From Spirochaetota bacterium (GTDB lineage Bacteria; Spirochaetota; Spirochaetia; DTKZ01), in contig JAOABU010000039.1 in the NCBI GenBank assembly GCA_026418195.1, positions 1 to 55,766 of the forward strand: DNA of 55,766 nucleotides, read 5' to 3'. The position numbers and the translations under genes were made by a program. Positions within the stretch are counted from its first letter, which is position 1; the number at the start of each line of letters is the position of its first letter. Shown here in pieces: positions 17,108 through 20,093 of this stretch. The notes beneath the pieces are model-generated. The model was not told the origin of the DNA, searched no databases, and was given only the letters and a program-made list of their open reading frames with translations.

Positions 17108-17911
17108 TTATCCAGTCGAGCCCTCCTCGTACTGCGTTAAGCGTTGATCGATTTCTTCCAACCGCTTCATGAGGGATTGGATGGTCTTTTCAATCCGTCG
17201 TTTTTCCTGCTTAAGCCGTTCTAACGGATCCTCTTCCTTTCGTTTCCGGGAAAACTCAGCCTTTACCCGGTCCGGGCTTTTCCCGCTTTTGAAGGCTTCT
17301 TCTGCCTTCTTTCGCTCTTCCTCGGTTTTCAACGAAGCAACCGTACGCATGTTCTCGAACCCTATCTCCGGATCTACGTTCAGAGCATGAATCCTCATAA
17401 GAACCCGGGCCGTGGTTCGATGGACCCCCAACACTCGATCTACGTAATCCTCAAACCGAGCATTGTGCTTTCGGCAGAGGGCTTCCGCTTCGGATAGGAG
17501 TTTCCCGAACTCCTTCATTAGGTGCCCATTTTTTGCAAGGAAAGAGGTCCGAATTCGATCGGTGAGAAGACGGAACTCCGCCTCCTGTTCGAACACATTC
17601 GTGTAGATGGATAGTTGTTCGGCACGTTCCAGCAGGTTATGGAACAGAGCCCAAAACTCCTGCGTGTGGGAACGTGTAGTGATGGGCACAGGAGAACGGG
17701 TAAAATGAAGATGGTGGGCGAACTCATGGATTGCCGTATAGATGAGGTCGTTTTCGCTTTTGAAGTTCCGGTTATGGATGATGATTTCCCGCCGCTCGGG
17801 GTGGTAGATCCCGTTTACTCGCTTACTCTGCTTGCCCGAAAAAATGACCTGAAACTCCTCCGTTTCCGGTTCCAATCGAAGAAGAAGCTCTTTGACCTGA
17901 TCTTGGTTCAT
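17108..17911 (-). CDS. HExxH zinc metallopeptidase-like protein with basic coiled-coil tail
   Basis: 267 aa. The N-terminal domain (about 1-120) holds HEFAHHLHF at about residues 62-70 and, some 14 residues on, HTQEFWALF: an HExxH plus H-x3-FW arrangement like that of YgjP/DUF45, WLM and SprT-type metallopeptidases, with two histidines and a third histidine as zinc ligands. Residues about 150-215 are helical; the C-terminus (about 215-260) is highly charged and predicted coiled coil (EERKKAEEAF, RLKQEKRRIEK). The frame extends to 17977, but that would run through the promoter; ATG at 17911 sits 6 nt after TATAGT. No signal peptide, so cytoplasmic. It is divergent from the ImuB/DnaE2 cassette. 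Substrate unknown; a link to DNA-protein crosslink repair is only a guess from position. Confidence 0.75.
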   Translation of the reverse strand: MNQDQVKELLLRLEPETEEFQVIFSGKQSKRVNGIYHPERREIIIHNRNFKSENDLIYTAIHEFAHHLHFTRSPVPITTRSHTQEFWALFHNLLERAEQLSIYTNVFEQEAEFRLLTDRIRTSFLAKNGHLMKEFGKLLSEAEALCRKHNARFEDYVDRVLGVHRTTARVLMRIHALNVDPEIGFENMRTVASLKTEEERKKAEEAFKSGKSPDRVKAEFSRKRKEEDPLERLKQEKRRIEKTIQSLMKRLEEIDQRLTQYEEGSTG

Positions 17912-17917
17912 TGCGCT

Positions 17918-17946
17918 ACTATACCGATGGAAGGGAAAGGATGCAA
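17918..17946 (-). promoter_or_regulatory. Leaderless-type promoter of the metallopeptidase gene
   Basis: TTGCAT (17941-17946), exactly 17 bp, TATAGT (17918-17923), then 6 nt to the ATG at 17911. Transcription is expected to begin on or beside the A of the start codon. There is no SD. Confidence 0.7.
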
Positions 17947-17962
17947 GGGAAACAGAGATCCC

Positions 17963-17991
17963 TTGAATACTAAACAATTGTGTAGTAGTAT
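17963..17991 (+). promoter_or_regulatory. Leaderless-type promoter of the DUF72-imuB-dnaE2 cassette
   Basis: TTGAAT (17963-17968), exactly 17 bp, TAGTAT (17986-17991), then 6 nt (TAGGGT) to the ATG at 17998. The spacer is filled by the palindrome described next. Confidence 0.7.
17968..17987. promoter_or_regulatory. 20-bp palindromic operator candidate, SOS-box-like
   Basis: TACTAAACAATTGTGTAGTA is symmetric at 9 of 10 base pairs (only 17973/17982 break). It lies between and overlaps the ends of the -35 and -10, so a bound dimer would block RNA polymerase. It has the same length and the same outer TACT/AGTA as the classic E. coli LexA box. That this organism's LexA binds it is an inference from the mutagenesis genes downstream. 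Confidence 0.6.
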
Positions 17992-17997
17992 TAGGGT

Positions 17998-18798
17998 ATG
18001 GATAGCCTGCCCTGTGATTTACGGATTGGCACCTCGGGGTTCGACTACCCGGAGTGGCGGGGGGTGTTGTACCCGGAGAATCTTCCCCGGGAAGAGTTCC
18101 TCCCTACCTATGCGTCAACCTTTTCCACGGTGGAGCTGAACTTTTCCTATTATCGGATCCCTCGGGAGGAACAGCTAGAGGGAATGCTGGAACGGGGTGG
18201 CTCCCGGTTAGACTTTTCCATCAAGGCTCATGAATCTCTCACCCACAAGGTGGATCCTGCCTCCTGGAAGGAGGCGGTAGCGGAGTATCGAAGGTCTCTC
18301 CGGCCCCTCCTTCGCTCAGGAAGACTCGTGGCAGTGCTCCTGCAGTTCCCCTACAGTTTCCACTACGATGCGGACCGACGGAAGTACCTCGATTCCTTAC
18401 TTCGGGAGCTGGATGGATTACCCCTAGTGGTGGAGTTTCGAAATGGGGCATGGCACACGCCCCGAGTCCTGGAGGCCCTTCGGGAGCGAGGGGTAGGGTT
18501 CTGCGCTACCGATATGCCGGATCTTAAGGGGTTGCCGCAGGAAGGGGAGGCAGTTACGGCTCCCCTTGCGTACCTACGGTTCCATGGCCGAAACCGGGAA
18601 ACCTGGTGGGGTTCGGATGCAGCGGCCCGGTTCGACTACCTCTACACCGAAGAAGAACTTCGTCAGTGGGTTCCCCGAATTCGTCGGATGAGCGCACAGG
18701 CGGCCCGGTTCCGGATCTACTTCAACAATCACCGAAAAGGACAGGCCGCGGTGAATGCCCGGATGCTGATCCAACTCCTCAACGGAAGCGGAGGATGA
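17998..18798 (+). CDS. DUF72 (YecE-like) protein
   Basis: 266 aa, usual length for the DUF72/YecE family, a TIM-barrel fold with no settled activity. Recognised from LRIGTSGFDYPEWRGVLYPE at the N-terminus, TFSTVELNFSYYRIP, the VLLQFPYSF strand, VEFRNGAWH near residue 145 and the YLRFHGRN and YIYFNNH-type endings (here FRIYFNNHRKGQAAVNA). Cytoplasmic. It is the first gene after the palindrome-covered promoter and begins 6 nt after its -10 without an SD. Downstream follow the ImuB-like and DnaE2-like genes, so it occupies the place that imuA often has in SOS mutagenesis cassettes; whether it takes part in DNA damage tolerance is not known. Confidence 0.9.
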   Translation: MDSLPCDLRIGTSGFDYPEWRGVLYPENLPREEFLPTYASTFSTVELNFSYYRIPREEQLEGMLERGGSRLDFSIKAHESLTHKVDPASWKEAVAEYRRSLRPLLRSGRLVAVLLQFPYSFHYDADRRKYLDSLLRELDGLPLVVEFRNGAWHTPRVLEALRERGVGFCATDMPDLKGLPQEGEAVTAPLAYLRFHGRNRETWWGSDAAARFDYLYTEEELRQWVPRIRRMSAQAARFRIYFNNHRKGQAAVNARMLIQLLNGSGG

Positions 18799-18875
18799 CA
18801 CGAACCTATTTAGGTTGCCTCGCCGAAGGGGGGAAGTAGTAGCGCATCGGATGTTCCTACAAGATGGAGTCAAGT

Positions 18876-20093
18876 ATGAGGGTAGGTAGGGTGGAGGAGT
18901 CCACCATCCTTCATGTGAACGTAACGGATTTCATGGCAGCGGTAGAGGAAGTTCGGGATCCTTCCCTCCGGGGGCGTCCCTTTGTGGTGGGATGGCAGGG
19001 GCGGAGCCGGGCCATTGTCCTTGCTGTATCGGAAACCGCCTTTCAGGAGGGGGTCCGTCGGGGGATGTGGTTGGAAGTGGCTCGTAAGAAGGTCCGTACC
19101 CTGAAGGTTCTCGCCCCTTGTTACGAGGTATACCATCGAGCCGATGCTCGGTTGGCCGAGGTGGCAAGGCGGTTTTCCCCGGTGGTGGAACAGAGGGGGG
19201 GAGGGCACCTGTACCTGGACCTTACGGGTACCCGGCGACTCTTTGGCCCACCTGTGGACTGTGCCGAACGGGTGCGAAAAGAAATCATCGAGGCTACCGA
19301 CCTCTTTCCCGCCCTGGGCCTTGCTTCGGCAAAGGTGGTATCCAAGGTGGGGACTCGGGTAGCACGTCCCTCTGGTTTTATCGCCGTCCCCCGGGGGGAG
19401 GAGCGGTCCTTCCTTGCCCCTCTCGATGTATCCCTTTTGCCCGGCGTAGGGGCACGACTTTTAACCCGGCTACACCTTTTACGAGTCCGCACCATTGGGG
19501 AGCTGGCCTCTCTTTCCGAAGAAGAGGCAGACGTGTTGGGACCCTACGGTCTAGTGCTACGAAACCGGGCCCTGGGAATGGACACCACTCCTTTAAAGGT
19601 TGGTAGTAGGGGTCTGGCCGGGCAACGAGGAACAGGTGAAAATACTCTATCCGCCGGAATCAGCCTTCCAGAGGATGCAAACGATGTTCATCTCCTTCTG
19701 TCTGCCCTTAGATCCCTCCTTTTCGATTTGGGTTTTACCCTTCGTACGCGGGGCCTATCTGCTAGAACCCTTCGACTGCAGGTCACCTATTCCGATGGGA
19801 TCCAGGCCCATGGCACATGGCGGTTCCCTACCCCCGTTTCCTCGGATGGTGAGCTGATGAAAGCAGGGCAGGTTCTTTTACCCCGAGTCTTGCGAAGGCG
19901 GATTCGGGTGCGAACCCTTCGATGCGATCTTGGCGGCCTCGAGCCAGAGACAGGGCAACTGGACATGGAAGGGATGCACGAAGGAAAGGTCCGAACCTTA
20001 CAGGAAAGCCTCGATCGAATCAGAAACCGATTCGGAAGGGAAGGGATTCGTCTCTGCGCGGATTTGGTGTTCCCATGTACGTTCCTCTCGTAG
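18876..20093 (+). CDS. imuB: Inactive Y-family polymerase, ImuB-like
   Basis: 405 aa. The fold of Y-family polymerases is clear: N-terminal ILHVNVTDFMAAVEEV, palm HLYLDLTGTRRLFG, helix-hairpin LLPGVGARLLTRLHLLRVRTIGEL and the little-finger region. Catalytic acids are gone: the first aspartate of the usual HVDxDxF is asparagine at residue 15, and the S-x-D-E pair of the palm is replaced by a glycine-rich EQRGGG around residue 105. That pattern is typical of ImuB, which acts as a scaffold tethering the DnaE2 polymerase to the clamp. QLDMEG near the C-terminus may be a decayed clamp-binding motif. ATG at 18876 is chosen over 18864 because GGAG lies 6 nt upstream of it. It overlaps dnaE2 by 19 bp. 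Confidence 0.87.
   Translation: MRVGRVEESTILHVNVTDFMAAVEEVRDPSLRGRPFVVGWQGRSRAIVLAVSETAFQEGVRRGMWLEVARKKVRTLKVLAPCYEVYHRADARLAEVARRFSPVVEQRGGGHLYLDLTGTRRLFGPPVDCAERVRKEIIEATDLFPALGLASAKVVSKVGTRVARPSGFIAVPRGEERSFLAPLDVSLLPGVGARLLTRLHLLRVRTIGELASLSEEEADVLGPYGLVLRNRALGMDTTPLKVGSRGLAGQRGTGENTLSAGISLPEDANDVHLLLSALRSLLFDLGFTLRTRGLSARTLRLQVTYSDGIQAHGTWRFPTPVSSDGELMKAGQVLLPRVLRRRIRVRTLRCDLGGLEPETGQLDMEGMHEGKVRTLQESLDRIRNRFGREGIRLCADLVFPCTFLS

Follow-up and report, generated by a model that had tools for sequence, protein, structure and literature searches.

The stretch of DNA analysed here (the window) comprises 55,766 nucleotides of contig JAOABU010000039.1 from a Spirochaetota bacterium, and carries a three-gene cassette for mutagenic DNA synthesis with a palindromic site in its promoter. 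The features of the locus are the following.

17111..17911, minus strand: SprT-like metallopeptidase-type protein (SprT-like 25.4 bits, cut-off 25.6; HEFAHH), divergent and outside the cassette
17917..17936, no strand assigned: weak, doubtful half-site TACTATACCGATGGAAGGGA, lying across the -10 of the divergently transcribed gene (5.3 bits)
17963..17968, plus strand: -35 element TTGAAT, with 17-nt spacing to the -10; TTGA abuts the box in nearly all cassettes
17968..17987, no strand assigned: operator, putative LexA box TACTAAACAATTGTGTAGTA, a 9/10 palindrome conserved in cassettes
17986..17991, plus strand: -10 element TAGTAT, which overlaps the box at its right end; TATAAT in G004, TATATA or similar elsewhere
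17998..18798, plus strand: DUF72 protein of 266 amino acids, first gene of the cassette (PF01904, 208.9 bits)
18864..20093, plus strand: ImuB-like Y-family protein (PF00817, PF11799) that has lost the catalytic acidic residues
20075..23356, plus strand: dnaE2-type error-prone DNA polymerase (PRK05672 'error-prone DNA polymerase', 542 bits, below the cut-off of 939; DnaE domains)

A preliminary description of the window had reported a 20-bp site with 9 of 10 symmetric pairs that fills the spacer between -35 and -10, with genes for mutagenic synthesis downstream, and had likened it to a LexA box. The layout is as described: the 17-nt spacer between TTGAAT and TAGTAT is filled by TACTAAACAATTGTGTAGTA, and DUF72-imuB-dnaE2 follows directly. 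A simple sigma-70 scan of the window did not call a promoter at the box; the orthologous promoter in G004 reads TTGAAT-17-TATAAT. The first cassette gene starts at an ATG (17998) 6 nt past the -10, with similar spacing in other cassettes, so that the DUF72 mRNA may be leaderless. On the divergent side, TACTATAC lies in the putative -10 of the SprT-like gene and is also present in the congener, and this gene might share control with the cassette.

In the ImuB-like protein, the catalytic region reads HVNVTDF, compared with HVDMDAF in DinB (L023), and GGGHLYLD replaces the SIDE region (translation read directly). Judged from the translation, this loss of the catalytic acidic residues is a mark of ImuB, and the locus combines a catalytically dead Y-family ImuB with an adjoining dnaE2, the start of which overlaps the end of imuB. 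No imuA was found in the operon or in the window; its usual place is occupied by the DUF72 gene, which adjoins imuB in all 30 cassette loci taken (L050-L079). The DUF72 protein is a possible uncharacterised component of the mutasome, encoded in the place of imuA.

The palindrome on its own is no rarer than expected by chance. Three 20-mers with at least 9 of 10 pairs are present in the window, against a mean of 1.45 in shuffled sequences, and no other copy of TACTAAACAATTGTGTAGTA was detected in the window with up to 3 mismatches. Nor is the pattern enriched genome-wide: matches to TACTNNACANNTGTNNAGTA (up to 2 mismatches) and ACTNNACNNNNGTNNAGT (up to 1 mismatch) do not stand out from the reversed-pattern control (10 versus 7; 45 versus 51). 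The form TACTA-N10-TAGTA, which had been put forward for a search for further sites, turned out to be too loose, with 3 places in the genome compared with 15 for the reversed pattern. All this is compatible with a palindrome that arose by chance in AT-rich intergenic DNA, and because the bare palindrome is no rarer than chance, the significance of the site derives from its conservation across genomes. That conservation, in position and in sequence and across five families, refutes the chance origin, to which we assign a negligible probability.

A class-wide search of 395 genomes yielded about 30 cassettes. The box was found in 27 of the 29 readable promoters (30 loci taken) and, after the addition of two later promoters with the box and one G246 copy without it, in 29 of the 32 readable DUF72-imuB-dnaE2 promoters. 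The box-bearing cassettes span five families (f1, f9, f36, f42 and f45), and in all of them the box occupies an equivalent place in the promoter. The sequence is TACTAAACAAATGTGTAGTA in a congener (uncultured Spirochaeta sp. MAG, L035), TACTCAACATTCGTATAGTA in another genus of the same family and TACTATACGTTTGTATAGTA in a different family, in each case with TTGAA immediately 5' and the -10 immediately 3'; the left-half stretch of the window box is TACTAAAC. The cassette consensus, TACTATACAN followed directly by NTGTATAGTA, fills the promoter spacer; it is also written TACTATACATATGTATAGTA (25.5 bits), and the informative core of the motif is ACTATAC-N4-GTATAGT. When the matrix is made from cassette sites with the window box among them, this box scores 29.6 bits and is the top site of the window, the runner-up reaching 9.7 bits.

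Part of this conservation is promoter sequence because the right half of the box overlaps the -10 (TAGTA/TATAAT). A conserved core promoter, composed of the -35, an extended spacer and the -10 and bound by no repressor, could account for that half. It is nevertheless very improbable as the whole explanation: TACTATAC on the left and ACA/TGT in the centre belong to the spacer, a region normally unconserved, and show symmetric conservation in all five families; repair genes unrelated to the cassette have this palindrome too; and the box has given way where the locus encodes another repressor.

The last point concerns the three box-less cassettes, one copy in G350 (L276, G350:C1:1407500-1411000) and two in G246 (L277 and L278), each of which is divergent from its own gene for a repressor with HTH_3 and Peptidase_S24 domains, an arrangement known from SOS repressors of Bacteroidetes and of the phage type. 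In G350, the second cassette retains the box (15.4 bits), with no S24 match listed nearby. G350 would therefore harbour a natural swap of repressor inside one genome. A switch of repressor accompanied by loss of the box is the pattern predicted for the operator of a LexA-like protein.

Absence of lexA from the genome would have spoken against the LexA-box reading, and the gene is present. The genome that contains the window encodes one canonical LexA (TIGR00498, 202 bits, cut-off 110.95) with the Ala-Gly, Ser and Lys residues in place; its gene is flanked by an NtrC-like regulator gene and a holA-like gene. Overall, lexA was detected in 293 of the 395 genomes, that is, in 32 of the 32 that carry the cassette and in 261 of the 363 others, counts that ignore relatedness. 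The 18 carrier LexA proteins that were aligned have intact cleavage residues (Ala-Gly, Ser, Lys) and the recognition helix [ST]V[KR][GA]A[YH]DH, compared with SPNAAEEH in E. coli; this altered helix would fit the change of the half-site from CTGT to CTAT. Because spirochaetes that lack the cassette have a similar recognition helix, the motif may be distributed more widely than the cassette.

In the family of the window's genome, lexA lies behind the NtrC-like regulator, with hprK further upstream on the same strand; in the genus g91, the order is hprK-ptsH-lexA-holA (L100-L103, L263). In the promoter of the latter operon, a one-sided AACAATTGTATAGTA, part of which is the -10, is kept in 9 of 9 genomes while its flanks vary. 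This one-sided site overlapping the -10 suggests autoregulation of lexA, in g91 only.

The preliminary description had also named the lack of further copies of the site at DNA repair genes as a result that would refute it; such copies were found in relatives and not in the window's own genome, which counts in part against the reading. In the window's genome, no box was found at lexA, recA or uvrB, no site occurs in the 10 kb preceding the NtrC-lexA genes, and among the pattern matches inspected, none except that of the cassette is at an obvious repair gene. LexA regulons commonly, though not necessarily, have the site at several SOS genes of one genome; at lexA, recA and uvrB of the window's genome this was not observed. 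A box confined to the cassette fits the report of single-target LexA regulons (PMC3323433) and at the same time leaves room for a different repressor.

In the relatives, a matrix built from the cassette sites only was applied to other genes, with sites within coding frames or with one-sided matches counted as chance. One of these is the TIGR03916 radical-SAM gene, which has the box 31-56 bp upstream in 8 of 8 genomes outside f9 and a weaker one in f9. Among the 19 TIGR03916 loci, there are 17 in which the top-scoring site of the entire locus is found no more than 120 bp upstream of the gene, a count that is the weaker statistic when taken alone, given that one permuted matrix also gave 17; the mean score is 8.8 bits, compared with -9.3 (sd 2.7, max 2.4) for 200 column-permuted matrices. 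A DUF4130 gene follows the radical-SAM gene in both loci checked. In other phyla, a UDG-linked repair operon (COG1573-COG4277) is under SOS control (PMC8565304), and the radical-SAM/DUF4130 operon may correspond to it.

Individual boxes precede further repair genes. In G057, which represents a sixth family (f6), a 27.4-bit box lies between divergent dinB and dnaE2-like genes (L288, G057:C75:1738). Boxes are also found before uvrB in G221 (21.8 bits) and G203 (12.8 bits), before recA in G203 (17.3 bits) and before rpe-dtd-recA in G279 (20.4 bits). In 239 kb of sequence around dinB and uvrB, a score of at least 8 bits is attained only at the G057 dinB site and the two uvrB sites, three windows in all. 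Taken as groups, uvrB, recA and lexA show no enrichment of the box immediately upstream, and its presence there as a general rule was rejected.

Several other matches were recorded in the course of these searches. A perfect-looking box, TACTTAACATATGTATAGTA, lies in an apparent CRISPR spacer between GGGGGGCGTGGATTGAAAC repeats (L123, G221:C1:2132824), as if the spacer had been taken from an element with such an operator. A 33-bit box lies near a gene for an unknown 284-aa protein (L124, G246:C1:2371994), a 22-bit box near mraZ (L037, G004:C10:12830), and a 27-bit box was found at L136 (G341:C6:58214). The AACATATGTAAAGTA palindromes of G016 (L122, L137; C18, C23, C45) were set aside: they are repeated, one of them beside a TetR-like gene, and are probably the operator of another regulator.

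Given these distributions, the box could belong to some other conserved repressor or activator that, independently of LexA, governs both the radical-SAM operon and error-prone synthesis, as would be in line with the promoters of lexA, recA and uvrB being mostly free of the box and with its restriction to the cassette in the window's genome. Four observations make this unlikely: the targets are typical of SOS regulons (imuB-dnaE2, dinB, uvrB, recA and a repair operon of a type for which PMC8565304 reports SOS control in other phyla), lexA is present in every carrier, the box-less cassettes have another S24-type repressor, and no further regulator gene accompanies the box. The site is thus, with high probability, the LexA operator of the DUF72-imuB-dnaE2 mutagenesis operon, LexA binding and induction by DNA damage being predicted from the genomic evidence. 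The presence of the box in cassettes of five families and at repair genes of relatives supports the original likening to a LexA box, and our verdict is that it appears to be a new LexA motif variant whose regulon is small and centred on mutagenesis.

Under such control, a LexA dimer on TACTATACAN-NTGTATAGTA, between the -35 and the -10 and overlapping the latter, would exclude RNA polymerase and silence the DUF72-imuB-dnaE2 operon. DNA damage would lead to RecA filaments and these to self-cleavage of LexA at Ala-Gly, whereupon the error-prone polymerase complex would be made.

A broader proposal, which we favour with moderate confidence, is that ACTATAC-N4-GTATAGT is a hitherto undescribed LexA motif and defines a mutagenesis-centred SOS network of the Spirochaetia. 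This network would consist of DUF72-imuB-dnaE2 and the radical-SAM/DUF4130 operon and would for the most part leave out recA, uvrB and lexA; in some cassettes, a private HTH-S24 repressor would have taken the place of LexA, and DUF72 would be a mutasome partner that replaces ImuA. The motif and the target list are testable for the class Spirochaetia and suggest that the SOS response in this class is built around inducible mutagenesis more than around recombination repair. G350 offers its apparent repressor swap, and DUF72 is a candidate mutasome component.

The E. coli SOS box is CTGT-N8-ACAG, with the full consensus TACTGTATATATATACAGTA. The spirochaete box shares with it the 20-bp palindrome, the overlap with the core promoter and, as had been pointed out, the outer TACT/AGTA, and agrees with it at 16 of the 20 consensus positions. 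The two differ in that the near-invariant CTGT half is replaced by CTAT and position 8 is changed (TACTATACAT), so that the CTGT-N8-ACAG core is absent from the new box (consensus CTAT...ATAG). On the cassette matrix, the E. coli consensus scores 12.5 bits, compared with 18-34 bits for the cassette sites.

Between phyla, LexA motifs have diverged; by 2021, 17 of them had been reported (PMC8565304). In the literature consulted, only the Leptospira boxes were found for spirochaetes and no LexA motif for the class Spirochaetia. In Leptospira interrogans, the boxes are TTTGN5CAAA for LexA1 and TTGTAN10TACAA for LexA2, and the LexA1 targets are recA, recN, dinP and lexA, with no imuB-dnaE2 cassette (PMC3789691). 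These are likewise spirochaete LexA operators, and that of LexA2 has the same 5-N10-5 spacing, but the half-sites are different and the new box matches neither, in keeping with the earlier suggestion of a new spirochaete motif.

The combination of HTH and S24 domains is the architecture of the non-canonical LexA of Bacteroidetes (PMC8565304). The HTH_3-S24 genes at the box-less cassettes of G350 and G246 have the same architecture; unlike their Bacteroidetes counterparts, they adjoin the cassette and coexist with a canonical LexA. The ImuA-ImuB-DnaE2 cassette is reported to be persistently regulated by LexA and, in several organisms, to be the sole LexA-controlled unit (PMC3323433). The spirochaete operon likewise joins a dead Y-family protein and DnaE2 in one operon, and differs in having DUF72 where imuA is expected.
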